From: Alphaproteobacteria bacterium
Lineage (GTDB): Bacteria > Pseudomonadota > Alphaproteobacteria > Caulobacterales > Parvularculaceae
Assembly: GCA_013151255.1 (NCBI GenBank)
Contig: JAADIQ010000098.1
Span: forward strand, 1-64,000
Direction of reading: 5' to 3'
Length of the DNA stretch: 64,000 nt
Part shown: piece by piece, positions 14,453-31,974 of the stretch
Layout of the letters: the number at the start of each line of letters is the position of its first letter
Position numbering within the stretch: the first letter of the stretch is position 1
The notes under the pieces: model-generated
Told to the model about the DNA's origin: nothing
What the model saw: only the letters and a program-made list of their open reading frames with translations
The model's database searches: none
Made by a program: the position numbers and the translations under genes

Positions 14453-16072
14453 CTAATCGGCGCCTTTGATCATGTCTGCGGCTTTTTCAGCGATCATGAT
14501 GGTCGGGGCGTTGGTGTTTCCCGAAACCACAAACGGCATCACCGAGGCGTCAACGACGCGAAGACCGCTGACGCCGGTAACGCGCAATTGTGGATCGGTG
14601 ACGGCCTGTTCATCGCGCCCCATCCGGCAAGTGCCGACCGGGTGATAGATCGTATCCGAACGATTTCGAATATCCTCAGTGAGCGCCGCGTCGCTGGCGG
14701 GCTCTTCCAGATAGAGCGATGCGCCCTTGACGCCGGCAAAGGCGGGCGCTGCAAAAATCCGTTCCATGATGCGCGCGCCTTTTATCAGGCGATGGAGGTC
14801 GTCTTCGTCTGCGAGGAAATTCGGGTCGATTGCGGGCGGCGCTTGCGGATCGCTTGAGGCGAGCGTGACGCTGCCGCGGCTTTTCGGTCTCAAAACGCAT
14901 GCATGACAGGTTATGCCGCCGCCGAGATGTTTCTTGCGGCCGTGATCATCGACCAGACCGGGAATGAAATGTAGCTGAATGTCAGGTTCTGCCTCAGTGG
15001 GATCGGTTTTTACAAAGCCGCCGCATTCTGCAAGGTTTGACGTGAACAGGCCTTCGCCGCGGTTTTTATAGGCGAAGAACGACGGGAAGAACTTTTTGAC
15101 CATGCCAAAATTAAGGCCGACAGAATCGCCTGACGATGTTTTATAAAGCGCGGGATAATCAAGATGGTCCTGAAGATTGGCGCCGACGCCCGGCGCATCA
15201 ACGACGACATCGAGGCCGTGCTCGCGCAAATGAGCGCCCGGACCAATACCCGATAGCATCAACATTTGCGGCGACTGGAACGCGCCGCCGGAAAGGATGA
15301 CTTCGCGTTTGGCTGCAACCGATTTCGGCGCGCCCATTTCAAGAAATTCAACCCCGCTTGCGCGTTTTGCGTCGAACATTACGCGCTCGGCGTAGGCGCC
15401 GGTGATGATGGTAAGGTTGGCGCGCTCTTTCACGGGATTGAGATAAGCAACCGCTGTCGAGCAGCGCCGGCCATCACGCTGCGTCACCTGATAGTATCCC
15501 ATGCCTTCCTGATCGGCGCCGTTGAAGTCATTGCAGTCGGGCAGCTGTAATTCAGCAGCAGCTTTCAGAAAAACATCCGACAATGGATTGCGGTAGCGCA
15601 AATCAGATACCGATAGCGGGCCGCCAACTGAATGGTAATTGTCGCTGCCGCGCTGATTGTCTTCCGCTTTCATAAAATACGGCAGAACCCCGTCCCAGTC
15701 CCAGCCATCGGCGCCTTCGCTCGCCCAGTGATCATAATCAGCGTGTGCGCCGCGAATATAAATCATCGCATTAATCGAGCTTGACCCCCCAAGCACGCGC
15801 CCGCGTGGCTGATAGCAGATGCGATCATTGAGATGTTTCTGCGGGACGGTATCAAAGCGCCAGTTTACCGGCGAGCTATCGGAAAAAAACGCAAAACCAA
15901 TCGGCGCATGAATGAGCGGGTCTTTATCGACGCCGCCCGCCTCTAACAGGCAAACGCTCACCGATGCGTCTTCGCTCAAGCGATTAGCAAGAACGCAACC
16001 CGCCGACCCGGCGCCGACAATTACATAATCAAACTCGCCCAGCTTTTCACGGGCGTTATTTTCTGCGGTCAT
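14453..16072 (-). CDS. GMC-family FAD-dependent oxidoreductase (choline / alcohol dehydrogenase-like)
   Basis: [79 protein letters not shown]. Confidence 0.93.
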
Positions 16073-16080
16073 AATTGCGC

Positions 16081-17529
16081 CTAAAGAATTTTCCGGATGA
16101 AGGAGAGGGTTTTTTCTAGTTTTTCTGTATAGGGAGGATGTAATAGCCCGCTACTGGCAAAACGGCTCTGGTAGAATACCGGTTTCAAATGTGAGAAAGT
16201 CTCAAACCCTGCGCGTCCATGATAGGCGCCGATGCCGCTTTTGCCGACGCCGCCAAAGGGCAGGTTTTCTTGCGCCAGATGCCATAATGTATCGTTGACG
16301 GTAACGCCGCCGGAAACGGTTTGCTGCAACACGCGGTCGCGCGCCTCATTGTCTTCGCCAAACCAGTATAGCGCCAGCGGGCGCTCGCCCTTGTTGATGT
16401 GGGCGATGGCCTCCTCGGTTGAGCCGTTCGGCAAAATCGGTAGGATCGGCCCGAAGATTTCCTCTTTCATGACAGCCGCATCCGCCGGCGGGTCGATCAC
16501 CAAAGTCAGCGGCAATTTGCGTTGCGGATGCAGCGCATTGGCGGAACCGACTTCAATAATCCGCGCGCCGCGGTCGCGCGCCTCTTCCACCATAGCTTTC
16601 AGCCTGGCAAAGTGTCGGTCGGAGATAATCGACGTATAATCCGCCGTCGTATCAATTTCCGGATAGAGCGCGCGCGCAGCGGCGGCGATGGCGGCGGCGG
16701 TCTCATCGAGTTTGTTGGTTGGCGCCAACACATAATCCGGCGCGATGCAAGTCTGCCCGGCATTGAGCATTTTGCCATAGGCGATGGATTGCGTGACTTT
16801 TCCAATATCGGCGCTGGCGTCGATAATCGCCGGGGACTTGCCGCCAAGCTCCAGCGTCACTGGCGTGAGGTTTTTTGCAGCGGCCTGCGCAACGCGTATG
16901 CCGATGCTGGTCGAGCCGGTAAACAGCAAATGGTCAAATGGTGTTTCGGTGAAAGCCTGGCCAGTATCAACGCCGCCGACAATAACGGCGAATTCTGATT
17001 CATCGAACGCCGCGCTAATTAACTCATGCATAACATCGCTGGTATGCGGGGTCAGTTCACTCGGTTTCAGCATCACCCGATTGCCCGCCGCAATCGCCGC
17101 CGCCGCCGGGGCCAGCGCTAAAAATACCGGATAGTTCCATGGCGAGATGATGCCGATAACGCCGAGCGGTTGCGGCTCAAGCTTGCTTTTCGCCGGCAGC
17201 ATATGCAGCGGTGTCGGCACGCCACGCGGACGCATCCAGTTTTTTAAACTTTTCTTCGCCATGCGCACGCCGGAAGTCAGGACCAGCATTTCTGCAATGA
17301 TGGTTTCATGTTTCGAGCGATTGCCAAAATCGGTGCTGATCGCCTTTGCGAAAGCGTCCTCATTGGTTTCAATCAGCTCGATAAGCTTATCGAGGCCAGC
17401 GATGCGTCGGTCATAAGAGGGAAACGGATTTTGCAAATAGGCGTCTTTTTGCAGCGCAAAAATGCGCTTGATCTCGCGTTCGCCTTCAGATTGGTCGGCG
17501 CCTAGTGTATGGGCGGTGTCGGCGGGCAT
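16081..17529 (-). CDS. coniferyl-aldehyde dehydrogenase family protein
   Basis: VTLELGGKSPAII and LNAGQTCIAPDYVL. Start set to MPADTAHTLGADQ (17529); the ORF-track extension to 17703 runs through a 17-bp tandem repeat and is probably non-coding. Confidence 0.9.
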   Translation of the reverse strand: MPADTAHTLGADQSEGEREIKRIFALQKDAYLQNPFPSYDRRIAGLDKLIELIETNEDAFAKAISTDFGNRSKHETIIAEMLVLTSGVRMAKKSLKNWMRPRGVPTPLHMLPAKSKLEPQPLGVIGIISPWNYPVFLALAPAAAAIAAGNRVMLKPSELTPHTSDVMHELISAAFDESEFAVIVGGVDTGQAFTETPFDHLLFTGSTSIGIRVAQAAAKNLTPVTLELGGKSPAIIDASADIGKVTQSIAYGKMLNAGQTCIAPDYVLAPTNKLDETAAAIAAAARALYPEIDTTADYTSIISDRHFARLKAMVEEARDRGARIIEVGSANALHPQRKLPLTLVIDPPADAAVMKEEIFGPILPILPNGSTEEAIAHINKGERPLALYWFGEDNEARDRVLQQTVSGGVTVNDTLWHLAQENLPFGGVGKSGIGAYHGRAGFETFSHLKPVFYQSRFASSGLLHPPYTEKLEKTLSFIRKIL

Positions 17530-17602
17530 TAAATTTCTCCCGTTATCAAATGCGCAAGGCTTGCGCAGAATGTGATGAATGCATAGGCGAAAGTCCACCT
17601 TC

Positions 17603-17670
17603 TTTGGCGCCAGCTGGGCTTTGGCGTCAGACGGGCTTTGGCGCCAGCTGGGCATTGGCGCCAAGCCGGC
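17603..17670. repeat. 17-bp tandem repeat, 4 units
   Basis: TTTGGCGCCAGCTGGGC (17603-17619), TTTGGCGTCAGACGGGC (17620-17636), TTTGGCGCCAGCTGGGC (17637-17653), ATTGGCGCCAAGCCGGC (17654-17670). Confidence 0.9.
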
Positions 17671-17777
17671 GCCCCCTGATTTTGCCCGGCATTGTGCCCA
17701 CATCGCCCGGTGGCTGACAACACGACAAAATGCGTCTAACCCTGCGCGGCAAAATCAGGCGCACAACAATAGCGAGC

Positions 17778-18902
17778 ATGGCCATGAAAAGTTTTTCTCC
17801 GCCCACCATACGTCTTATGGGCCCCGGCCCGTCAAAGGTGAGCGAGCGTGTGCTGGCCGCTATGGCGCGCCCGACGATTGGACATTTGGATCCGGAATTC
17901 ATCCGCCTGATGGATGAGATCGGGAGCCTTCTGCGCACTGCGATGCGGACGGAAAACGATCTGACATTTCCGGTTTCTGCGCCTGGCTCTGCGGGCATGG
18001 AAACCTGCCTGGTCAACCTCCTGGAGCCGGGCGACACAGCGGTTGTTTGTATAAACGGTGTCTTTGGCGGACGGATGAAAGAGGTTGTAGAACGCGCTGG
18101 CGCAACGGCGGTGGTCGTCAATGATGAATGGGGCGCGCCTGTAACACCAGACAAAGTGGAAGCTGCTCTCCAGGAAAATCCGCAAAGCAAGTTAGTCGCT
18201 TTCGTTCATGCTGAAACGTCAACCGGCGCCCTGTCGGATGCGCAACAAATTTGCCGTATTGCAAAAAATCACGGAGTGCTCGTCGTGGTCGACGCCGTTA
18301 CCTCTTTGGCAGGCGTGCCGTTGGAAGTCGATCGCTGGGGTATAGATGCGGTTTATTCCGGAAGCCAGAAATGTCTTTCCTGCCCGCCGGGTCTGTCGCC
18401 GGTCAGTTTGAATAAAGCTGCTTTGGCATGTGTTGAGGCGAGAAAAACGCCGGTTCAGAGTTGGTTTCTCGATCTGTCGCTTGTCGCGGCCTACTGGCAG
18501 GGAGATGGCGCCCGCGCTTATCACCACACCGCCCCGGTCAACGCCATGTACGCCTTGCATGAAAGCCTTATCGCATTGCATGAGGAAGGCCTGGAAGCAT
18601 CATGGGCGCGGCATGAACGAGAAAGCGGGGTCTTGCAGGAAGGCCTTTCAAACCTTGGGTTTGAGTTTCTTGTAGATAAAAAATACCGGCTGCCGCAATT
18701 GCTGAGCATTCGAATTCCTGAATTTGTGGACGATGAAGCGCAAATACGCCGCCATTTTCGCAATGCTTTTTCGCTTGAAATTGGCGCGGGCTTAGGCCCC
18801 CTTGCGGGCAAGGTTTGGCGCATTGGCCTGATGGGCGCCGGCGCCAATCGAGACAATATCGACGCTTGCCTTAGCGCCCTCGCTTCAATTTTTGAGACCT
18901 GA
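17778..18902 (+). CDS. alanine--glyoxylate / serine--pyruvate aminotransferase family protein (class V)
   Basis: IRLMGPGPSKVSERVLAAMARPTIGHLDPEF; GSAGMETCLVNLLEPGD; VDAVTSLAGVPLEVDRWGIDAVYSGSQKCLSCPPGLSPVS. Confidence 0.92.
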   Translation: MAMKSFSPPTIRLMGPGPSKVSERVLAAMARPTIGHLDPEFIRLMDEIGSLLRTAMRTENDLTFPVSAPGSAGMETCLVNLLEPGDTAVVCINGVFGGRMKEVVERAGATAVVVNDEWGAPVTPDKVEAALQENPQSKLVAFVHAETSTGALSDAQQICRIAKNHGVLVVVDAVTSLAGVPLEVDRWGIDAVYSGSQKCLSCPPGLSPVSLNKAALACVEARKTPVQSWFLDLSLVAAYWQGDGARAYHHTAPVNAMYALHESLIALHEEGLEASWARHERESGVLQEGLSNLGFEFLVDKKYRLPQLLSIRIPEFVDDEAQIRRHFRNAFSLEIGAGLGPLAGKVWRIGLMGAGANRDNIDACLSALASIFET

Positions 18903-19077
18903 CAGAGGGGTTTAGCGCCGCAACGCGGTTTGCCTTTTTCTCCTCAGCTAGGTTTGCTCCGGAAACGCTTCGCAGGCTCGCATCGGTGATAATTATTATT
19001 CTACCTGTGAGCGATGCGGGACCGTTCCCGCACGCCGTTGCGCTTGAAGTGAGGGAGGCGCCGCCTTCGCTCTCTCG

Positions 19078-21306
19078 CTATTTACCGAAACTAACTTTCA
19101 ACTCTACGCCATATTTGCGCGGCTGGTTGAAGTATCCGTTCAAAGAAATCGTTTGCAGCCGATAGACTTCATTGGTCAGGTTTTTGCCAAAGGCGCTAAG
19201 TTGCCAGCCATCGCCGCGCACCCCAAGGCGCGCATCGACAAGAAAGAAATCATCAAGCTCACGGCCTGTCGCTGACGTCGTTCCGCCAGAAGCATTCTCA
19301 AAGCCGCCGCCTTCTGTTTGCAAGCTACCGCCCATAAACCAGTCAACCGAGTCTGCAAGCGGCGCAAAATAAAACGCATTTGCCTGGATCACATAGTCTC
19401 GCGTTCGATTGACGCGCGCGCCCGATAGATCAATCGTTTCAATAACCGGGCCGCCTCCACTGGTGGTAATCAGCGAGCCATCGGAAAAATCGCCCCGGGT
19501 CGTCGCCGCACTGGCGCCCCAACGAAGTCGCCCCGGCCCAGCGTCAAACGCACCAGAAACATCGGCTTCAAACCCAAAAATATTGGTGTTTCCGACATTT
19601 TGAAGAGCTGTCGTCGTTGTGGTTGTGTCCAGCGTAGATACAGCCTGCACATCTTTGGTAACTACGTAAAAACCGGTGAAACCAAATCGCACCCCGCCTT
19701 GCGTGGCGCCCTTCCAGCCGGCCTCAAAAGAATACGCAGCCTCAGGATCGTAAGGAATAAACTGAGTATTACTTACATCAAGACCGGTATTGAAGCCGCC
19801 AGGCCGGTAGCCGCTTGCTGCGCGCAGATAAATTATCTGATTATCCGAAACACTATAGTTGAGCGTTGCGGCGGGCAAGAACCGTGTCCAGCTTTCCTCC
19901 AAGTCACCTGTGGCAAGTATTATTGAGCCGCTTTGATTGCGCGTAAAATTAAAATCCTTATTGTCATTTTGAACGCGCGCTTCCAATGTCAGTGACGTAG
20001 ATTGCGCAAGGCCAAACTCAACCAATCCGAAACCAGAAACCGATCTCAGTTTTTCAACAAACATATCTTGCCGAGTTGCAAGCGCTGCGAGCCCGCCCAG
20101 CCCTGAAGTCCCTCCGTTTGTGGTAACGACATCATCATTTGAACTTAGGAAGTCAGCGCCAATCAGCCAGGTGACCCCTGAGCCAGACTTTGACGCCAAG
20201 CGAATTTCGCCAACAAAGCGTTGATAATCTTCCGTCTGTGCGGCGGTGAGGTCCGTGGTGACACCGCCTACGTCAATGCCTTGAAAACCAATGAAGCTGT
20301 CGAGGTCTTCGTTAAAGCGGTTTCCATCCCTTTGTTTGTAGGAAAATATCGCTGTGAAATCACCGATAGCGAGATCGGAAGTCAAATCTGCAAACACCGC
20401 CGTAGAGTCGATCTCCACAACACCGATACGGCTGTCGTTGGTCTGATAGGGACCAGGGTCGGCGTCTCCGGTTTGCCCGGCTGCATTTCTGCCGGTGAAG
20501 CGTTGGCCGAGCGCACTAAAGCCGGGCGCTGTACTATCGTAATACTCGACAAGGACATTCGCAGTCGTGGACGGTGACAGGTCCGCACGCAGCGCGCCTC
20601 GCAGGCCAAGATAATCTCTTTGATCGACGGCGTCGCCAGTGTTGACATCGGTAATGAAGCCATCGTTTTGATCAATATAAAAAGCGCCTAGCCGTGCGGC
20701 TACGTTTTCACCCAGTGGCGCATTAACTATTCCGGATACTGAGTATCGTTCGGCGCTTTCATACCCTGCTTTTATTTCTGCCGTCGTTTCATCGGTAGGC
20801 TTCTTGCTGATGACGTTGATTGCGCCGCCCACGGCATTACGACCGTACAATGCGCCTTGAGGTCCGCGATATGTTTGAACATTATCAAGGTCAAAGAAAT
20901 CTAGTCGATTGAACGACCGCCCGCCAAACCCGCCGCCTGCGATATAAACGCCGTTGCGATAGATGCCTGTTGAGGATTCAGAAAACCCTTGGCGCCCGCC
21001 GCCCTGACCGCGAATTGAAATGTCGGATAGATATTCCGGCCCGCCATTCACCAAAATTGCATTGGGAATTTGTCGAATGTAGTCGGCGATCCCATCGAGC
21101 GCCAAGAGATCGGCGTCTTCACCTCGCAACACGCTGATGCTTGAGGGAACATCTTCAAGCGATTCTTCTTTTTTTCGGGCCGTGACAAGAATTGTATCTC
21201 GCGCATCGACGGCGTCTGCGTCTTCTTGCGCCATGGCGCCAGGAACTACAGCGCCGGACCCCAACGCTGAAATAATCGCTGCCGTGGTAAGTAATTTATG
21301 GTTCAT
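19078..21306 (-). CDS. TonB-dependent receptor
   Basis: ARDTILVTARKKEESLEDVPSSISVLRGED plug; YRGPQGALYGRNAVGGAINVISKKP; C-terminal KYGVELKVSFGK. Confidence 0.95.
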   Translation of the reverse strand: MNHKLLTTAAIISALGSGAVVPGAMAQEDADAVDARDTILVTARKKEESLEDVPSSISVLRGEDADLLALDGIADYIRQIPNAILVNGGPEYLSDISIRGQGGGRQGFSESSTGIYRNGVYIAGGGFGGRSFNRLDFFDLDNVQTYRGPQGALYGRNAVGGAINVISKKPTDETTAEIKAGYESAERYSVSGIVNAPLGENVAARLGAFYIDQNDGFITDVNTGDAVDQRDYLGLRGALRADLSPSTTANVLVEYYDSTAPGFSALGQRFTGRNAAGQTGDADPGPYQTNDSRIGVVEIDSTAVFADLTSDLAIGDFTAIFSYKQRDGNRFNEDLDSFIGFQGIDVGGVTTDLTAAQTEDYQRFVGEIRLASKSGSGVTWLIGADFLSSNDDVVTTNGGTSGLGGLAALATRQDMFVEKLRSVSGFGLVEFGLAQSTSLTLEARVQNDNKDFNFTRNQSGSIILATGDLEESWTRFLPAATLNYSVSDNQIIYLRAASGYRPGGFNTGLDVSNTQFIPYDPEAAYSFEAGWKGATQGGVRFGFTGFYVVTKDVQAVSTLDTTTTTTALQNVGNTNIFGFEADVSGAFDAGPGRLRWGASAATTRGDFSDGSLITTSGGGPVIETIDLSGARVNRTRDYVIQANAFYFAPLADSVDWFMGGSLQTEGGGFENASGGTTSATGRELDDFFLVDARLGVRGDGWQLSAFGKNLTNEVYRLQTISLNGYFNQPRKYGVELKVSFGK

Positions 21307-21380
21307 GTCTTCCTCCCAGAATTATGATTGGTCAGGCGGTTTTCAAAACGCTAGGCATGGGAGAGGCTCTTGTCCACACT

Positions 21381-21392
21381 ATTGTAGACAAT
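21381..21392. promoter_or_regulatory. candidate GntR operator ATTGTAGACAAT
   Basis: Inverted repeat ATTGT-AG-ACAAT between divergent TBDR (start 21306) and GntR gene (start 21626). Confidence 0.55.
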
Positions 21393-21625
21393 TCTGTAAG
21401 CAAACACGCATAATTTTAATCATGTGGCAATTTTCACACGATCCTCGCCGCGTTCTCTAGTGAAACCTGCTAACTGAGGCGAGCATGCGGCTGTTTTCAT
21501 GAATCTGCCGGCTAAAAAAGGGCAATAAGGCGCGCATTCTTTTTGAATAGCGGCGGAGAAATTGAAGGTTTCTATTTGGAATGACAATGTTGTATGCAGG
21601 ATTGCCAACAAAAGGAACGAGACCT

Positions 21626-22279
21626 ATGCCGCAACCTGCAGCAAAACGACTTACGTCGGACGATATTGTGTTTGAGATGATCAAGCTGTTGCAGAAGAAG
21701 GTGTATCAACCTGGCGACCGGCTACGCGAACAGGAGCTCGCCACCAGGTTTGGCGTGAGCCGCGGTCCCATTCGTGAAGCCTTGCGCGCGCTGGAAGCAA
21801 AATCACTGATCAAAATAGAGCCGATGCGCGGCGCCTCCGTAACCAGGCTGAGTGACAAAGACGCAATAGAAAGCGTTGAAATTAGCGCCACTCTGTTTGG
21901 CTTGGCTGCGAATAAGGCGGCCGGGTGTGAACAACATTTCATTACAAAACTGCGAACGCAATTGAAAACGCTAAATGACATGGTCAATCAAGACACCTCT
22001 GCGAAAGCTTTTTTTCTGCAGACCATCAAAATGGGCATGATCGTCGTAAAAGCTGCGGGCAGCGATCGATTGGCGGCATTGCTCTCGGATATCCGCATCG
22101 GCGCCCCCGATCTGTTCGGCCCTTTTGGCTTTACGTCATCAACGTTGCGCAAAAAAGCAGCGACGAAATGGGCGCGAATGATAGATGCAATCGAATCTAA
22201 TGATGTGGATGCGGCGGAAAGAATCGCGCGCGAGCTCAACATGGATTCGCTAAAAGCCGCTCTTGAAATTGTCGGGTGA
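21626..22279 (+). CDS. GntR-family transcriptional regulator (FadR/FCD-like)
   Basis: LQKKVYQPGDRLREQELATRFGVSRGPIREALRALEAKSLIKIEPMRGASVTRLSDKD winged-helix block; start MPQPAAKRL more plausible than 21581. Confidence 0.9.
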   Translation: MPQPAAKRLTSDDIVFEMIKLLQKKVYQPGDRLREQELATRFGVSRGPIREALRALEAKSLIKIEPMRGASVTRLSDKDAIESVEISATLFGLAANKAAGCEQHFITKLRTQLKTLNDMVNQDTSAKAFFLQTIKMGMIVVKAAGSDRLAALLSDIRIGAPDLFGPFGFTSSTLRKKAATKWARMIDAIESNDVDAAERIARELNMDSLKAALEIVG

Positions 22280-22419: not shown

Positions 22420-23991
22420 TTAATCGTTCTTTGGCGCTTGTGTCGATTGTTGTCGATCATAGAGGTTACGCCAATCTTCTGGCGGAAGCGGTAGCTGGCG
22501 GCTGTCCTTTTGTCGCGCAGGCTCAAACGCCGGACGCGGCTTGTCGGAGCGGACCTGTTCGAGCCAGAAGACGCCATCATATTCGCCGCTATTGCCACGC
22601 GTTGCAACGAAATCGATATCGCCATCGCCATCCATATCGTGCGGAATGAATTCGTCATACATGCCTCTTATCCGTCGCGAGATATCATGGCGAATCCATT
22701 CATTATACGGATTACCTGTATTTTGAAACCAGGTGATGCGGCCAACAGAAGAGGCGGCGGTAACGTCTGGATCGTCGTGATCACGCGCGGCGCCGGAATA
22801 TCCGCCGTCAAGCACATTCAGACCGGAATAGCCGCCAGCCATCACATCCAGGTCGCCATCATTGTCGATATCGGCAACGGCGAATCCAACGATTACATCC
22901 GGCATAACATCGCCAATTGTGAAGAACCGCCAAGGGTCTGAAAGACGGGCCGGCTGCCTTAGCCAGCCCAAGGAAACGACGAGCTCGTCAGTTCCATCTT
23001 CGACGATCACCATCACAAGATCAGTGCGCGCGTCGGCGTCCAAGTCAGCGTCCGCAGCATGAAACACATTTGTGCGTCCGCGCCATCCGGGCGGCATGTC
23101 CGCCCCGGGCGCTATTTCGATTGGTTCTACCGCCCACCCGCGCGCGCGTCGATCCGCCCGATCACTTTGTACGAGTAGCAGCGCCTTGTAGGTCAATCGT
23201 GATCCAGTTAAAATATCGACATCGCCGTCACGATCAATATCGATGGGCATTGCCGTATTCGGCACGCCAGCATCCCATAGTTTCATTTCCACCCATGAGC
23301 TTTGGTCAAGCGGATCACTGGTGATTTTGAAAACGGACAATACGCCGCTGCGGGCCTCTCCCGCGCTTACATCGATGACGTCAACGCCGCCCTTATTCGC
23401 AGCCAGAACTTCCGGCATGCCGTCGCCGTCCAGATCCGACATGAACACACGAAGCCATGACCCCCGGTTTTTAGTAATCGACGGAATTATGCGCGCCCAG
23501 ACGCCCCGGCGAATCTGGCGGCCGGGATTTTGTAGGTAGATGAGGTGACCGCGCTCGCAAGCAGCGACAATGTCAATCCAGCCATCGCGATTGAGATCGC
23601 CGAGTGCAACGTCCTCAATGGCGTTGACCTCTTCACCAAAGGCAACGGTGGTAAGAACCCATTCGTTCGGGTCATCCGTACCAAAAGCAATACGCAAATG
23701 ATCTGAATCCTCGTGAACGGATATGATATCAATATACCCATCGGCATCCAAATCCGCGAGCTTTAGCCCGTCGCCGCCGCGTATTGGAACGCCGCCATTG
23801 ATGTCTTCACCATCAATGAGATGCTCCGTCCAGGAAATATACGCGCCGTCGGGCGTTTGCGCTTGGGTCGGCGTCGAGGCGATGTTTTGCTGTGCAGGAG
23901 CGAGGCTTAATTTCTGGCTGCATCCGGACGCAATCATAAGCACAACGAATGTGATCAGGAAAAGGGGGATAGCAGAACATCCAGACTTCAT
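22420..23991 (-). CDS. FG-GAP/VCBS repeat lipoprotein
   Basis: LIASGCS-like lipobox (LMIASGCSQ); repeated Asp-rich motifs LADLDADGYIDIIS, LGDLNRDGWIDIVA, MSDLDGDGMPEVLA, IDIDRDGDVDILTG, VADIDNDGDLDVMAG, PHDMDGDGDIDFVA. Confidence 0.92.
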   Translation of the reverse strand: MKSGCSAIPLFLITFVVLMIASGCSQKLSLAPAQQNIASTPTQAQTPDGAYISWTEHLIDGEDINGGVPIRGGDGLKLADLDADGYIDIISVHEDSDHLRIAFGTDDPNEWVLTTVAFGEEVNAIEDVALGDLNRDGWIDIVAACERGHLIYLQNPGRQIRRGVWARIIPSITKNRGSWLRVFMSDLDGDGMPEVLAANKGGVDVIDVSAGEARSGVLSVFKITSDPLDQSSWVEMKLWDAGVPNTAMPIDIDRDGDVDILTGSRLTYKALLLVQSDRADRRARGWAVEPIEIAPGADMPPGWRGRTNVFHAADADLDADARTDLVMVIVEDGTDELVVSLGWLRQPARLSDPWRFFTIGDVMPDVIVGFAVADIDNDGDLDVMAGGYSGLNVLDGGYSGAARDHDDPDVTAASSVGRITWFQNTGNPYNEWIRHDISRRIRGMYDEFIPHDMDGDGDIDFVATRGNSGEYDGVFWLEQVRSDKPRPAFEPARQKDSRQLPLPPEDWRNLYDRQQSTQAPKND

Positions 23992-24085
23992 AAAAGCCGT
24001 ACTGTTTTTAGAGCCGCCAACCAACGACTACGCGTTTTCATAGTTTGTATTCCTGCAAGCGCAAAAGACATAGAAATGCCTTGTT

Positions 24086-24119
24086 ATTATAGAAGATACG
24101 ATATAGTATCACCTATAAT
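24086..24119. promoter_or_regulatory. 34-bp dyad-symmetric candidate operator between divergent genes
   Basis: ATTATAG-AA-GATAC-GATATA-GTATC-AC-CTATAAT. Confidence 0.6.
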
Positions 24120-24233
24120 CGCGGCCGACAACAAGAATTAAGACGTTTGGCGCGCTCCAAATTTTTGACAGGCCGTTTGCGCCGGCAACGCTAACGAAAA
24201 CCGCATCGAAGCAAGTAAGGACACCATTTAGCG

Positions 24234-26114
24234 ATGGCTCAATGTGACGGTTCAAAAATTTTAACAACACCGACAAGAATTTTCGCCGCTGCCGTGGCGC
24301 TTGCTCTCGCTTTAGCCGGGCTGAGCATCACAAGCCGTGCTCACGCTCAGGAAATGCAGCTTTATTGGGGCGACACCCATGTGCATACGAATTATTCTTT
24401 CGATGCTTATCTGTTTGGAAACAAAACCGCCGACCCAGACACAGCATACAGGTTCGCAAGGGGTGCGCCGGTTTTGCATCCGGCAACCAGGGTGCGGATC
24501 CAGTTAGATCGCCCCCTCGATTTTTTGACTGTAGCCGATCATGCCGAAGCGCTTGGCGTTATCAGACGCCTGGACGCCCGCGACAAAAGAATACTCGAAA
24601 CTCGGTTTGCCAAAGAAAACAAAGCGGCGTTTGCTTCAAATAACGGCTTGGAAATTTTTCGCCGCCTTGCGCAAGGGCTTAGCAAAGGCGAAAACCATGA
24701 TTTATATTCGGAGTTGCAAACCCCTGAAATTCTGGCGCCAGCGTGGAATGACGTGATTACCGCCGCTGACCGAAATAATCGGCCAGGTGAGTTTACCGCC
24801 TTGATTGGTTGGGAATGGAGCTCTGCGCCAGGCAATGCGAATTTACACAGAGTCGTCGTAAGCGACGCCAATGCGAGCACTGCATCGAACTTTCTACCCT
24901 TTTCTGCGATTGATAGCCAAGACCCTGAAGCGCTGTGGAGGTTTCTATCGGATACTGCATCCGAATTTGGCGTCAATTTTGTTTCTATACCTCATAATTC
25001 AAATTTATCGCGCGGCCTCGCCTTTGCTATTGAAGATGTCAACGGTCAACCGATTACAGCAGATTATGCGCGCAGGCGGATGATGTGGGAAAGAGTGGTT
25101 GAGGTCACTCAAACTAAGGGCGATTCCGAAACACATCCTGTTTTGTCTCCAACCGATGAGTTTGCCAATTTTGAATTCTATCCATTTCTAGTCTCTGGCG
25201 GTCAATATGGTGATGACGAAGAAATCAGCGGCGGAAGTTATGCTCGCTCAGCGCTAAAGCGCGGCTTGGCGATTCAAGGAGAGACTGGCGAAAACCCGTT
25301 TCAATTTGGCATGATCGGTTCAACCGACGTCCATACCGGCCTTTCTACAACTGGCGAACGCGAATTTGCCGGCAAGCTGCCAATGATGGCGACGCCTGAG
25401 GCGCGATTAGATCGAAAAAAGAACCTCGGTGATGACAGGGTCAATACGTGGGACATGGGGGCTCAAGGCCTTGCGGCTGTCTGGGCGGAAGAAAATACGC
25501 GGCAATCGATCATCAACGCGTTCCGACGGCGTGAGGTTTATGCGACGACGGGTTCAAGAATTATGTTGCGGGTGTTTGCGGGGGCATCGCTCAGCCCACG
25601 AATAATCAAGTCTCGAAACTGGATAGAAAAAGCCCGCTCAAAAGGAGTGCCGATGGGCGGAGAGCTTTTTGGCGGCGACACTGAAAAACCCCCAACGTTC
25701 CTCATTCAAGCCGTAAAAGACCCGCGCAGCGCCAGCCTTGACCGCGTGCAAGTGATCAAGGGGTGGCTGGATTCCTCTGGCGAAATGCATGAACAGGTCT
25801 TCAATGTCGCCCTGTCCGGTGATCGTATCATAGCCGCTGATGGCTCAGCGCCGGCATTGCTCGACACAGTCAACCGTGAAAATGCAAGTTATGACGCCGC
25901 TTCCGGCAATACAGAGTTTCTCGTTGCCTGGACCGATCCTGTCTTTAGAGCTGATGAACCAGCCTTCTATTATGTGCGCGTTCTTGAAGCGCCAACGCCG
26001 CGTCATTCCCTCTACGACCAGGTAGCGCTGCAAGAAACCATTCCAGGAAATGTGACGCTGACCCTGCAGGAGCGCGCTTACAGTTCTCCCATCTGGTACA
26101 CGCCCGCCCAATAA
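24234..26114 (+). CDS. DUF3604 domain-containing secreted protein (PHP-like metal-ligand pattern)
   Basis: Signal-like N-terminus; LYWGDTHVHTNYSFDAYLFG, DFLTVADHAEALG, VSIPHNSNLSRG, IGSTDVHTGLSTTGE. Confidence 0.9.
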   Translation: MAQCDGSKILTTPTRIFAAAVALALALAGLSITSRAHAQEMQLYWGDTHVHTNYSFDAYLFGNKTADPDTAYRFARGAPVLHPATRVRIQLDRPLDFLTVADHAEALGVIRRLDARDKRILETRFAKENKAAFASNNGLEIFRRLAQGLSKGENHDLYSELQTPEILAPAWNDVITAADRNNRPGEFTALIGWEWSSAPGNANLHRVVVSDANASTASNFLPFSAIDSQDPEALWRFLSDTASEFGVNFVSIPHNSNLSRGLAFAIEDVNGQPITADYARRRMMWERVVEVTQTKGDSETHPVLSPTDEFANFEFYPFLVSGGQYGDDEEISGGSYARSALKRGLAIQGETGENPFQFGMIGSTDVHTGLSTTGEREFAGKLPMMATPEARLDRKKNLGDDRVNTWDMGAQGLAAVWAEENTRQSIINAFRRREVYATTGSRIMLRVFAGASLSPRIIKSRNWIEKARSKGVPMGGELFGGDTEKPPTFLIQAVKDPRSASLDRVQVIKGWLDSSGEMHEQVFNVALSGDRIIAADGSAPALLDTVNRENASYDAASGNTEFLVAWTDPVFRADEPAFYYVRVLEAPTPRHSLYDQVALQETIPGNVTLTLQERAYSSPIWYTPAQ

Positions 26115-26175
26115 GAGCTTAAATTACTCGACATTTTATTCTGGACAACCGGAACGAAATCAAAAACGAAGCATA

Positions 26176-26853
26176 ATGTCAAAAAACAATAACACGGTAA
26201 CGAAGACGCCTGACGTTGAAACAGTGGATGGCCGCACGACGCGTTATGCCTCTCATAGAATACAACGTCGGGAGGCTCTGCTTGAGCAAACAACTGTGCT
26301 CTTGGCGAAATATGGGTTGCGCGCTTTAACGATCGACGACATCGTTGAAAGGCTGGATATAGCCAAGCCTGCTCTTTATCGCTATTTCAGTTCGAAAGAA
26401 GATCTGATCCGGGCTACGCTGACCCGCGCCCGAGAAGATCTTGTGGAGGCGGATATGGCGGCTGACAATAGTGATTGGCGGCTGCAATTGCTCGGCGCCA
26501 TTCGTTTCATCGCCGTCCGACCCGAGGCTTTTATAGTCTTATACCGGCACGCCGCTAATGATCCGGAATACCACTCGTATTTCAAGGCATACTTCGATCA
26601 AGCGTCGGAACTCACGTTGGAACGTCTTGTCAGGTTTTCTGCAAATAGTCCGGACACGCCAGTTAGCTTCGATTTTTGCGCACGCGCGCTCGTATCATTT
26701 ATTTTCAGCGCAACACTAACATGGATTGAAGATGGGGCTTGGGAAATCAAGGCGTTTCACAAATGGCTTGTGCTTTCAGCGGTCGCACTTACCGAAAGCT
26801 GGGCGGTGTTCACATTCGAATCCGCCGCTGAAGAAGAAAATTTCGGCCAGTAA
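26176..26853 (+). CDS. TetR/AcrR-family transcriptional regulator
   Basis: REALLEQTTVLLAKYGLRALTIDDIVERLDIAKPALYRYFSSKEDLIRATL. Confidence 0.92.
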   Translation: MSKNNNTVTKTPDVETVDGRTTRYASHRIQRREALLEQTTVLLAKYGLRALTIDDIVERLDIAKPALYRYFSSKEDLIRATLTRAREDLVEADMAADNSDWRLQLLGAIRFIAVRPEAFIVLYRHAANDPEYHSYFKAYFDQASELTLERLVRFSANSPDTPVSFDFCARALVSFIFSATLTWIEDGAWEIKAFHKWLVLSAVALTESWAVFTFESAAEEENFGQ

Positions 26854-26987
26854 CCTCGACATTCAGATAGCTTGCACGCCGTGACCCAACCCGCCCAAGA
26901 GCATTGCCGTGCTGAGCCCTTAATTTGGGCCCGAAAAAAATTTACCGCCGCAACCGCAACGGCATCAGTCTGTTTGAGGACAAGCAT

Positions 26988-27983
26988 ATGCAAAAAAACA
27001 AAGCCTTTATCAAAAGACAAGCGGAGGAGCCTAGGCTTTTGGGGGGCACGGGGAATAGCCGCGATAAAGGCCGAGCCACGAGTTTGTTTTGGTCTGCAAA
27101 GCGGCTATTTAGCGACCCGCTTACTCATTTTCTGATTATTGGTTTTATTATATTTTCTACCATAACCGCTTTATCGCCGGACGAGAACGAGGCGGTCATT
27201 ATTGTCGATGACGCCGCTATCTTAACGTATATTCAGTATCGTTCGAAAGCATTTGATGAAGAAAGCGCATGGGCGGCATATCGCAATCTTAGCGCTGATG
27301 AGAAAACCACATTAGTCAATGACTATGCCCGAGAAGAAGCGCTCTACCGTGAGGCAAAAAAACTTGGCTTTGAAAATGGCGACTACATCATACGTCAGCG
27401 ATTGATTCAAAAACTCGACTTTATCGCTGAAGCTGGTTCCATTCCACCATCACCTGATGTCGCGGAGATGCTTGAATTTTACACAAACAACAGCGATGAA
27501 TTCAGCGAGCCGGAACGCGCGTCATTTACACACATATTCTTTTCAAAGGACGGCAGTTCATACAACAATGCTTTGGTGCGCGCGCGCGCTGCTCTTTCCG
27601 TAATTGAGCGAGCGGAAACGATGCAAGATGGTAGCGAATATGGAGACCGTTTTCTTTATCAATCAAGATATACCAACCGAACGCATGATCAGATTGTTGA
27701 TATGCTTGGCCCCAAGGCTGCCGAGTTAATTTTTTCGCCAGAGGCATCAATAAATCAATGGGTTGGGCCGGTAACATCTCATCATGGCGTACACCTCATA
27801 TTCATTTCGAGCCGGCGCGCACAAATGACCGAACCGTTTGAAGCCGTGCAGGATATTGTAGAAGATCGAATGAGGCGGGAGGAGATCGCCAAGCGAAAGG
27901 CCGATTACATCAGGCAAATCGTCACCAACTATCAAATCAAGACCAAGCTATCGCCGCTGCACGATGCTGGCTTCACTGAATGA
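26988..27983 (+). CDS. membrane-anchored PpiC-type peptidylprolyl isomerase family protein
   Basis: Single TM (THFLIIGFIIFSTITAL); REEALYREAKKLGFENGDYIIRQRLIQKLDF; SEPERASFTHIFF; NQWVGPVTSHHGVHLIFISSRRAQMTEPFEAVQDIVEDRMR. Confidence 0.8.
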   Translation: MQKNKAFIKRQAEEPRLLGGTGNSRDKGRATSLFWSAKRLFSDPLTHFLIIGFIIFSTITALSPDENEAVIIVDDAAILTYIQYRSKAFDEESAWAAYRNLSADEKTTLVNDYAREEALYREAKKLGFENGDYIIRQRLIQKLDFIAEAGSIPPSPDVAEMLEFYTNNSDEFSEPERASFTHIFFSKDGSSYNNALVRARAALSVIERAETMQDGSEYGDRFLYQSRYTNRTHDQIVDMLGPKAAELIFSPEASINQWVGPVTSHHGVHLIFISSRRAQMTEPFEAVQDIVEDRMRREEIAKRKADYIRQIVTNYQIKTKLSPLHDAGFTE

Positions 27984-28978
27984 AATTAGGATTGAACATA
28001 GTTCTTGCCGGTCTAATACTCATCTTTAGCCAGGCGGCGTTTATAGCACGCGCCGAAGCCCATGAGGCTCGCCCCATCTACATTGAACTGACGCAAACGG
28101 GTCAATTTACTACCGTTTATTGGTCGACGCCGCCAACGCTTGCACAACGCCTCGCACCTAGAATTTCACTGACCGGTTGCAATTTGATCAAAGTGGTTGA
28201 TGGCGCCGCGTCCAGCGCCAACTTCCTCTCCTACAAATGCGCCAGCGTTTCCGGTCGGGTCTTGAATCTGGATTTTCCGTCTTACAATCCGTCACTCTCA
28301 ACAGTTATTAAGTTGCGCAAAGATGGAAAGAACCAGTTTGTCACTTTGGTCCCAGGCGTTTCACAATGGGTTGTGCCAGAAAATACAACCGGCGGCCAAA
28401 TCATCAAAGACTATTTCAGGATTGGGATCCAACACATTCTTCGCGGCGCCGATCACCTCCTGTTCCTCGCCGGCCTGATGTTTATCGCGCGCACGCCGGC
28501 AAGGATTTTGACCACCGTTACCGGTTTCACATTGGCGCATTCTCTCACTATTTTCCTAACGGCATTTAATATTATTCAGGCGCCTATCTTTGCGACCGAA
28601 ATTATTATCGCTTTGTCCATAGTTTTTCTTGCTAGCGAGATCGCTCGTAACAACAGGCAAACGCTCACCTGGCGCAGACCAATATTTGCAGCGTCAATCT
28701 TTGGTCTGTTTCATGGAATTGGGTTTGCTTCAGCTCTGGGTGAGATTGGGTTGCCGCAAACGGATCGAATTTTCGCTCTTGTTTTCTTCAATCTAGGCGT
28801 GGAGGCTGGCCAGATACTAGTTGGCGTCGCCCTGTTTTCTGCAGCGCGCTTATTCCTCGTATGTTTCGATCAAAAGAGAAGCGATACAATGAAACCGCAT
28901 TTGCAGACAGGCTTAGCATATATGCTAGGTATCGTATCTTCTGCCTGGTTCTTCGAAAGGCTTTTAAGTGCGGCGTAA
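27980..28978 (+). CDS. HupE/UreJ-family membrane protein
   Basis: FRIGIQHILRGADHLLFLAGLMFIARTPARILTTVTGFTLAHSLTIFLTAFNI; overlaps stop of preceding gene. Confidence 0.88.
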   Translation: MKLGLNIVLAGLILIFSQAAFIARAEAHEARPIYIELTQTGQFTTVYWSTPPTLAQRLAPRISLTGCNLIKVVDGAASSANFLSYKCASVSGRVLNLDFPSYNPSLSTVIKLRKDGKNQFVTLVPGVSQWVVPENTTGGQIIKDYFRIGIQHILRGADHLLFLAGLMFIARTPARILTTVTGFTLAHSLTIFLTAFNIIQAPIFATEIIIALSIVFLASEIARNNRQTLTWRRPIFAASIFGLFHGIGFASALGEIGLPQTDRIFALVFFNLGVEAGQILVGVALFSAARLFLVCFDQKRSDTMKPHLQTGLAYMLGIVSSAWFFERLLSAA

Positions 28979-29239: not shown

Positions 29240-30211
29240 TCAATTGAAATAGGCCTCGCGAACAGCTTTTCCGCACACGTAGCTATTTTGAAAATTTGAG
29301 CTGTCTGTAGCGATAATACCGTAGCGTCCTTTACCGGCGCTAATCCAGGGATAAAATCCCAAGGCGCCAGGACTAGAGTAGGCGCCGTCACCAGGGCTCA
29401 AGGGCGTGCCATTGGGAAGCACGCCACCGGTGTTATCTTCAATCCAATGGTACAACGAATAATGTAGATCGACTGTACCAAACGGGCTGTTGCAATTCGC
29501 ACATTGGGTTGTGACAGGGCTGTCGCCTAAATAGGCGGACATTACGTAGGTCCCCTTCATAATGCCTTGAAGAAACGCAGCGTAATCGGCAGCACTTGCG
29601 CGCATGCCGCCGGCTACAGCCGGCATGTTATATGAAAAGTCGGAGCCAAGATTTAGAAAGCTGTTTATTTCGGTTAGCAGGGCGTTTGCATCTTTGTTCC
29701 CAAGCCCTAGCAGGTTGGACTTTGCGGCCGCGTACTGGCCATCACCGCCCCCATAGTTGAAAAAACCAACCTTACTGGGATCAACAACGTCATTGTTTCC
29801 GACTACGTAGCATCCATAGACTTTGTTAGCGAGAGCACACGAACCAGGATTAAAACTTGTATGGCCTTCCTTCATGTTAAGCGAGGATATTATTGTCGCT
29901 CCGGACGGCCCGGCAGGCAGCCCTCCATAACGCTGCAAGACGTAAGCGCCGAATATCCATTTTGAAGCTGATGCAATTCCAATTTGCGTGTTTCGGCCAT
30001 AAGTATTTCCGCCGACCTGTCCAGAAATGATCGGCCCACCCCATTTTCTGCCAATCTCCCAGTAAAATGGCTGCACAGCATTACATGCTGACCCGTTTGC
30101 TGCTGCGATAGCCTCTGGTTTTCCCGCATGAGCGATCGAAAATACGCTGGCGAGACCGACAAAGGCTGATGCAAGCAGTTTGAATATTGCAGCCCGGTTT
30201 GATTTTCTCAT
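29240..30211 (-). CDS. secreted beta-lactamase-superfamily-like serine hydrolase (SxxK)
   Basis: Signal peptide; IGIASASKWIFGAYVL (SxxK); six Cys in the mature region; C-terminal PGALGFYPWIS shared with the neighbouring gene product. Confidence 0.7.
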   Translation of the reverse strand: MRKSNRAAIFKLLASAFVGLASVFSIAHAGKPEAIAAANGSACNAVQPFYWEIGRKWGGPIISGQVGGNTYGRNTQIGIASASKWIFGAYVLQRYGGLPAGPSGATIISSLNMKEGHTSFNPGSCALANKVYGCYVVGNNDVVDPSKVGFFNYGGGDGQYAAAKSNLLGLGNKDANALLTEINSFLNLGSDFSYNMPAVAGGMRASAADYAAFLQGIMKGTYVMSAYLGDSPVTTQCANCNSPFGTVDLHYSLYHWIEDNTGGVLPNGTPLSPGDGAYSSPGALGFYPWISAGKGRYGIIATDSSNFQNSYVCGKAVREAYFN

Positions 30212-30582: not shown

Positions 30583-31674
30583 TCAAAGGCAGTTTTCAAT
30601 ATTTTTTATCAACACACGCTCCGCATCCACAACACGGTTCAATCTGCTTTTTATAAAAATAACGCCCCATGTGCCGTCCGTTCGGTCAATCCACGGGTAG
30701 GCCCCCCAGGCGCCAGCGGAATGAACAAATTTACATGCGCCCCCCACGGTTTCATAACCTTCACACCAGCTGCCAAGACCATAGCTTGACCCGGTCACAA
30801 CAGCATTAGGCGCGAAATCAATCCTAGCGTCTCCGACTTGATCAGAAAACATCTGATCGATTGAGGCGCTGCTAACAATATCCCCGCCGCCAATACTTAA
30901 AGTATGTATGAGCGCGGCAAAGTCTCTGGCTGAAATAAATAACCCGCCGCCCAACATCTCACGACCAACTTCCGGGCCGCGCAACGGGCGCCCCCAAGCT
31001 GCTGTCTTTAAACCAAGGGGGCCGGCAACGCGCTCAGCGAACAGCGCTGACCAGTTTTTTCCCGTGATTTGCTCAGCAATGGCGCCGGCAACCTGCATAG
31101 AGCTGCCGCCATATCGAAAGGATGTTCCAGGCGGCGCTAGCAGCTTCGGCGCAAGCATACGCCGCGCAACGGATTGGGCCCCGCCCTTACCGGTGTCTCG
31201 CCTTATCAGCCTCGGTGCGATGCCGGACGTATGCGCCAGCAATTGCCGTAATGTGATGGATTTTTTGACGGCGTCAATTTCCGGAAAATATTCGCCAATT
31301 GTCGTGTCGAGCTTGATTTCTTCGCGGTCGACAAGCGTGAGAAGCGTTACCGCCGTCGCCCATTTAGAGGCGCTTGCGATGTTTATGGCGTCATTGGCGC
31401 CAAAATTGCCGTATTGGTTGGTATACTGAGCGCCATGCGCGTTTCCTGCGATGACAATAAATCCGTTGCTCCTCGGCGCCGATCGCAGTGTCGAAAAGGA
31501 CGTCTGCGTTGTTTCTTCGTCATTGACACATTGGGCGATTTTCTTTCCAGCTGATAGAATCGCAGCAGTATTTTCAACATTTGCTGCGTCATTACTGGTC
31601 GCGGTAGAACAGGCCGCAAGGGCCTGCATTACCGTAAAGACAAAGGAAAACAGAAGCTGGCGCGGGTAATTCAT
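30583..31674 (-). CDS. serine hydrolase, beta-lactamase class C-like, predicted lipoprotein
   Basis: INIASASKWATAVTLLTLV (SxxK); LRQLLAHTSGIAPRL; FRYGGSSMQVAGAIAEQITGKNWSALFAERVAGPLGL; HSAGAWGAYPWID. Start MNYPRQLLF (31674) gives a lipobox-like ALAAC; the longer ORF (31749) would run through the operator. Confidence 0.88.
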   Translation of the reverse strand: MNYPRQLLFSFVFTVMQALAACSTATSNDAANVENTAAILSAGKKIAQCVNDEETTQTSFSTLRSAPRSNGFIVIAGNAHGAQYTNQYGNFGANDAINIASASKWATAVTLLTLVDREEIKLDTTIGEYFPEIDAVKKSITLRQLLAHTSGIAPRLIRRDTGKGGAQSVARRMLAPKLLAPPGTSFRYGGSSMQVAGAIAEQITGKNWSALFAERVAGPLGLKTAAWGRPLRGPEVGREMLGGGLFISARDFAALIHTLSIGGGDIVSSASIDQMFSDQVGDARIDFAPNAVVTGSSYGLGSWCEGYETVGGACKFVHSAGAWGAYPWIDRTDGTWGVIFIKSRLNRVVDAERVLIKNIENCL

Positions 31675-31705
31675 GAGCAGGCTTTCCTTGATGCGAAGCT
31701 CCAAT

Positions 31706-31729
31706 AATGTAGACATTATTGTTAACAAT
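31706..31729. promoter_or_regulatory. two abutting candidate GntR operators AATGTAGACATT + ATTGTTAACAAT
   Basis: Inverted repeats 31706-31717 and 31718-31729, just upstream of the start at 31674. Confidence 0.6.
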
Positions 31730-31974
31730 ATAACGTCAATCCGAAGCAAGGCAAGGAAAATCTCAAGTAAGAAACAGTTGGCGCACTAACCCAGCCTGTC
31801 CCAAGTGAAAACCATATCCGGCAAGGTTCGCATCGTAAAGCTACTCGTGTTCGCAATACAGCATGTGGAATTTGTTTCACCTTTTGGTGCTTTTCCTGCG
31901 CGATATATTTCTATCACGTAAATTCTTGGAAGCTGAAAACACTTACCCCGCCGTCAACTTGGCGTATTGCAGCG

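Follow-up and report, generated by a model that had tools for sequence, protein, structure and literature searches.

A conserved three-gene unit of DUF3604, PpiC-type and HupE/UreJ-2 genes in Alpha- and Gammaproteobacteria

The window analysed here is a 64-kb stretch (64,000 bp) of contig JAADIQ010000098.1 from an alphaproteobacterium of the order Caulobacterales, and it contains three genes, coding for a DUF3604 protein, a PpiC-type protein and a HupE/UreJ-2 protein, that are a widespread conserved unit across Alpha- and Gammaproteobacteria. All three are on the forward strand. The DUF3604 gene (24234–26114; 626 aa with a Sec-type signal peptide; Pfam PF12228, 5.2e-217) is the first gene of this core, followed by a gene for a PpiC/SurA-type protein with one N-terminal transmembrane (TM) helix (26925–27983; Pfam Rotamase_2) and by the gene for a HupE_UreJ_2 permease with a periplasmic N-terminal beta domain (27980–28978; Pfam HupE_UreJ_2). 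The PpiC stop and the HupE start share four bases (ATGA, 27980–27983), an overlap that a preliminary description of this DNA had pointed out. That description set the three genes within a group of five that also includes an FG-GAP repeat lipoprotein and a TetR-family regulator; the five open reading frames were verified on their strands and at their coordinates within 22420–28978, and Pfam matches for all five agree with the families it named. The window genome is a 3.12-Mb draft with a single DUF3604 gene. We lean slightly towards interpreting the trio as an envelope operon in which a PHP-type metallohydrolase destined for export comes with a foldase of its own and a metal-handling HupE permease.

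DUF3604 loci were drawn from 299 genomes of the order, 399 genomes of the phylum, GTDB contigs and plasmids. The PpiC–HupE pair lies beside the DUF3604 gene in 28 of the 40 fetched loci of the order, with a few more ending at contig edges, and in 17 of 20 DUF3604 loci from other orders and classes of the phylum; the conservation of gene neighbourhood that the preliminary description put forward as a check is seen for these three genes in other genomes. Among the called PpiC genes the DUF3604 gene lies directly before 27 of 28 and HupE directly after 25 of 28, mostly with the 4-base overlap. HupE is found within 6 kb of DUF3604 in at least 43 genomes of the order, where fewer than one would be expected by chance as estimated from genome size. 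Plasmids from seven strains, which belong to six genera, also carry the annotated trio (two of Rhizobium leguminosarum, and one each of Neorhizobium, Sinorhizobium meliloti, Ruegeria, Rhodobacter and Pseudoalteromonas), in otherwise differing surroundings and usually with the 4-base PpiC/HupE overlap. Clustering of the neighbouring genes at 55 loci revealed no further recurrent partner as frequent as the trio genes themselves.

A tree of 97 DUF3604 proteins, with 66 from trio loci, 4 from partial loci and 27 from solo genes, has trio loci throughout the whole main group, and the trio of one genome of the same class as the window (G595) is sister, on short branches, to a Rhizobium plasmid trio, which makes Alphaproteobacteria the most likely class. 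Pairwise distances between loci are correlated for all three combinations of proteins (PpiC–HupE, r=0.78; DUF3604–PpiC, 0.60; DUF3604–HupE, 0.57), with none of 2000 permutations giving values as high, albeit with a contribution from shared host descent. One PpiC–HupE pair is often shared by two or three DUF3604 genes.

A second family from genomes of the order (clade 2; loci L216–L230) has the three genes in the same arrangement; its DUF3604-like proteins are 750–800 aa long and match the DUF3604 profile only in part. A DUF3604-like gene is followed by PpiC in 13 of the 15 loci read, and by HupE too in 12 of those 13; two further loci have HupE only, with the long frame called on the opposite strand. 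Pfam confirms all three families in clade 2, where scores are 36–94 bits for PpiC as against about 300 in clade 1, and 94–177 as against about 390 for HupE. The DUF3604-like proteins nonetheless keep all nine of the PHP-type ligands described below. Since the same order is kept in clade 2 with three diverged proteins, the three genes have diverged together, and clade 2 shows the trio to be ancient.

The DUF3604 protein matches its Pfam profile at full length (722 bits against a cut-off of 20.4; residues 39–624 on positions 2–591 of 591). The signal peptide is judged by inspection to be of the Sec type, and several relatives carry a lipobox instead. The predicted layout is a beta/alpha domain with PHP-type ligands followed by an Ig-like beta domain, and an AlphaFold2 (AF2) model has a mean pLDDT (predicted local distance difference test) of 86.7 and a pTM (predicted template modelling score) of 0.88, with strands and helices alternating over residues 42–440. 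Nine PHP-type ligands, with codons within 24378–25334 on the forward strand, are invariant alignment columns: H49 (codon start 24378), H51 (24384), D57 (24402), H103 (24540), E194 (24813), H205 (24846), H254 (24993), D365 (25326) and H367 (25332) are kept in all 34 aligned proteins from both clades. PHP enzymes have ligands of the same kinds in the same order, and the nine-ligand pattern of the superfamily (HxH, D, H, E, H, H, DxH) is found entire in DUF3604. The DTHVH, ADH, PHN and DVH pattern reported in the preliminary description is present, and its His and Asp residues are invariant or nearly so among the relatives.

Alignment of DUF3604 with CehA/McbA using hhalign places E194, H205 and H254 on their counterparts and scores 81%, as compared to 0.3% and 2.5% for unrelated control profiles. 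The NCBIfam CehA_McbA profile matches weakly around the HxH and DxH ends, with E values reaching 1.5e-6 in clade 2, and its cut-off of 80 bits (NF038032) is missed both by the window protein (15.1 bits) and by the clade-2 proteins (up to 27.9 bits). On this profile evidence DUF3604 is distantly related to the CehA/McbA metallohydrolases, and the remote homology suggests a putative hydrolase activity. We note that a 675-aa protein of another genome (G104, locus L168) is matched by the DUF3604 profile as well as by that of CehA/McbA and bridges the two families.

The remote relationship to CehA/McbA carbamate hydrolases also bears on a catabolic explanation, according to which DUF3604 would hydrolyse an environmental ester or phosphoester, HupE would import the product or a counter-ion, and PpiC would fold the secreted enzyme. 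Sulfatase or arylsulfatase genes lie near three of the trios, in keeping with such a role, but no catabolic gene is recurrent beside the trio across loci and HupE retains its metal-site histidines, and we regard this explanation as quite unlikely.

The PpiC-type protein matches the Pfam Rotamase_2 profile with 37.5 bits (cut-off 27; E 5e-9). Its start is listed as a TTG, with an ATG at 26988 being a possible alternative. A profile search matches the structures of SurA, PrsA and CBF2, with SurA-like N-terminal helices and a parvulin-type domain, and the parvulin motif is degenerate in the PpiC proteins of clade 2.

The HupE protein matches HupE_UreJ_2 (PF13795) with 135.5 bits (cut-off 24.5; E 1.6e-39), and no relatives were found in the Protein Data Bank (PDB) by sequence. 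Inspection predicts cleavage between AEA and HEARP, leaving His28 (codon 28061) as the mature N-terminus. Among proteins from clade-1, neighbouring and plasmid loci the predicted mature N-terminal residue is His in 42/57, Asp in 12/57 and unmatched in 3/57, and all 14 of the clade-2 proteins have a predicted N-terminal His. A triad of membrane histidines, H152 (codon 28433), H159 (28454) and H187 (28538), is invariant in 40/40 proteins; together with His28 these codons span 28061–28540 on the forward strand. An AF2 model of moderate confidence, made from five-sequence input, has a signal peptide, a beta domain and then a membrane domain, and the best Foldseek matches of the N-terminal domain, all of them weak, are zinc-binding ZrgA, PA4063 and the copper-binding Ang-1 domain 9GCE. 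Trio-type HupE proteins, with a median open frame of 342 aa, exceed in length the remaining HupE_UreJ_2 proteins of the order (267 aa). We also read 20 further HupE loci, one of them a trio control and 19 picked because no full-length DUF3604 was listed close to their HupE; in these loci PpiC adjoins HupE wherever the trio HupE profile score is at least 290 and only there, and the remainder score 88–186, none with PpiC. At L191 and L193, which are on Pseudoalteromonas and Rhizobium plasmids, the trio has a further, short HupE/UreJ protein encoded beside it.

Under the envelope-operon interpretation, the DUF3604 protein would be an exported, multi-metal-dependent hydrolase of the PHP type, working on phospho-, carbamate- or other esters in the periplasm or beyond it. 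PpiC, tethered to the inner membrane, would assist folding of the exported enzyme, and possibly of the permease too. HupE/UreJ-2 may bind a transition metal through its periplasmic domain, with a free N-terminal His, and through the invariant membrane His triad, and may supply or handle metal for the DUF3604 enzyme, as HupE/UreJ proteins do for hydrogenase and urease. The sequences themselves establish the conserved order, the joint occurrence and joint divergence of the genes and the invariant ligands; the hydrolase activity, the client of the foldase, and metal delivery together with its direction are what we infer. The preliminary description had suggested an extracytoplasmic hydrolase or metal-dependent enzyme that has its own folding helper and a membrane protein for a metal or solute, and the conserved gene order and the invariant DUF3604 and HupE ligands are in agreement with that part of its suggestion; the FG-GAP and TetR proteins find no support as partners.

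Several observations weigh against this interpretation. The 27 solo copies among the 97 DUF3604 proteins are one, and L198, the one clear case of a PpiC–HupE pair without an adjacent DUF3604 gene, is another. About one trio HupE protein in five has Asp at the N-terminus, so that His is not universal, and the fold matches of the HupE N-terminal domain reach only E values of 0.002–0.013 (9GCE, E 0.013) and come from a five-sequence model. No sequence match between HupE and RbAng-1a (9GCE) was found with the profile at E≤1 or with the Ruegeria trio HupE at E≤10. Relatives of HupE are regarded as importers, which by itself does not explain metal supply to a periplasmic enzyme. No solved relative of DUF3604 was found in the PDB by sequence. 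Structure prediction of DUF3604, proposed in the preliminary description as a check for a PHP-type site, gave a confident AF2 model, but there were no PHP enzymes among the Foldseek matches listed for it, which involve the C-terminal Ig-like part only.

Because solo DUF3604 genes exist, several DUF3604 genes share one pair, and a trio-type pair is rare without DUF3604, the PpiC–HupE pair appears to be an accessory to the enzyme. It is the pair that depends on the enzyme, not the enzyme on the pair, and a maturation role is therefore favoured. As a tentative possibility, which we would not presently expect to be correct in full, HupE/UreJ-2 could insert metal into the exported PHP-type hydrolase with the tethered parvulin helping, a route that would have no precedent among extracytoplasmic PHP enzymes.

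The dependence could also be read in the opposite sense, with the enzyme serving the permease in metal acquisition: DUF3604 would hydrolyse a metal-binding organic ligand in the periplasm, and the N-terminal-His domain of HupE would catch the metal for import. HupE/UreJ-2 anglerases have been proposed to fish metals out of the periplasm and import them (PMC12537917), and some DUF3604 loci have TonB/ExbBD or a TonB receptor next to them. However, the shared pairs, the solo DUF3604 genes and the near absence of trio-type pairs on their own make the pair look accessory, and none of the other genes beside the trio is frequent enough across loci to point to a metallophore system; we consider metal acquisition rather unlikely.

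The two remaining genes of the preliminary description lie outside the conserved core. The FG-GAP repeat lipoprotein (22420–24024, reverse strand; Pfam FG-GAP_3, 1.5e-22 over 3 stretches) is the divergent neighbour of DUF3604, and its lipobox (MIASGC) and seven Asp-rich repeats in the translation accord with the lipoprotein of six or more FG-GAP/VCBS motifs that had been described. The TetR-family regulator (26176–26853, forward strand; Pfam TetR_N, 2.6e-14) lies between DUF3604 and PpiC. An imperfect 30-bp dyad with no assigned strand, TATAGAAGATACGATATAGTATCACCTATA (24088–24117), is situated in the shared promoter region.

A system of all five genes, in which the trio would function together with the FG-GAP lipoprotein and TetR, would be consistent with the divergent layout and with the dyad between FG-GAP and DUF3604. 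FG-GAP homologues are present in 16 of the 299 genomes of the order, the window genome and 15 others (48–59% identical), and besides the window one adjoins a trio in a single genome only (G279, L056), where it is next to HupE; in the other genomes carrying one, the homologue is apart from the trio. TetR is not conserved at its place, with none found between DUF3604 and PpiC in the other trios of the set, and it is a local insertion that probably serves local control in the window genome. The symmetry of the dyad does not score above chance for 64 kb, being equalled in most randomised windows. Its exact 30-bp site was found in the window genome only, among 30 genomes, and a similar dyad is upstream of just one other DUF3604 gene (L063), by a search pattern partly derived from the L063 site; the dyad is thus a weak candidate for a TetR operator. 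The five-gene system was rejected because neither FG-GAP nor TetR accompanies the trio from genome to genome, and we regard it as very improbable; only DUF3604, PpiC and HupE, out of the five genes taken as one system in the preliminary description, travel together.

Most of the other FG-GAP homologues examined (L131–L141) are near a TonB receptor, two carboxylesterases, a CoA ligase and an MFS (major facilitator superfamily) transporter, in another family of the order, and this context is possibly an ester-catabolism cluster. Elsewhere in the window, a gene at 29240–30211 (reverse strand) encodes a secreted 323-aa protein with no Pfam match, which has an IASASKW stretch in common with the adjacent beta-lactamase-family protein (30583–31749, reverse strand) and is probably a remote serine hydrolase relative. 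On the other side of the DUF3604 locus, 14453–22279 encodes an aldehyde dehydrogenase, a GMC oxidoreductase, a PhnW-like class-V aminotransferase, a TonB receptor and a GntR regulator that resembles phosphonate regulators, and is possibly a separate catabolic cluster. PADLOC gave no match to a known defence system.

In the literature searched we found no published description of a DUF3604–PpiC–HupE trio, and essentially nothing on DUF3604 other than a lone incidental mention. The component families, and operons combining a metalloenzyme with HupE/UreJ, are already known; what appears to be undescribed is a fixed trio in which the enzyme is exported and of the PHP type and a parvulin takes part. 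The DUF3604 operon is common to Alpha- and Gammaproteobacteria and is carried by plasmids in both root-nodule and marine bacteria; its fixed foldase and metal permease hint at a way in which exported metalloenzymes may mature, and they provide a candidate client enzyme for the metal-binding HupE/UreJ-2 proteins described recently.

Comparison with known systems reveals both likenesses and differences for each component. DUF3604 resembles the CehA/McbA proteins of the PHP superfamily in the order of its HxH, DH, E-H-H and DxH motifs, in remote profile similarity and in export, although it is far under the NCBIfam cut-off (15 versus 80 bits) and has its own Ig-like C-terminal domain. The trio PpiC shares N-terminal SurA-like helices and a parvulin-type domain with the SurA, PrsA and CBF2 parvulins, but differs in its single TM anchor, its operon-bound gene and the degenerate motif in clade 2.

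For the permease, parallels are found in the Ang-1 and Ang-2 anglerases, presented in a 2025 paper (PMC12537917). The Ang-1 domain of another HupE/UreJ-2 protein binds Cu and Ni through its N-terminal His, with metal capture being proposed, and His194/His201/His229 of MmAng-2a are proposed as a metal site (PMC12537917); the main text of that paper mentions neither DUF3604 nor a peptidyl-prolyl isomerase. The trio HupE is like the anglerases in its signal peptide, predicted N-terminal His, periplasmic beta domain and HupE/UreJ-2 membrane domain, and the spacing of H152/H159/H187 exactly equals that of the MmAng-2a histidines (PMC12537917), whereas the clade-1 domain is shorter than that of the anglerases (PDB 9GCE; about 110 versus about 175 residues) and His1 is not universal. 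The operons of HupE with hydrogenase and of UreJ with urease are alike in that a HupE/UreJ-family permease is co-encoded with a metalloenzyme that it possibly serves; the trio departs from them in having a HupE_UreJ_2 permease with an extra periplasmic domain, an exported enzyme and, in addition, a PpiC-type foldase.

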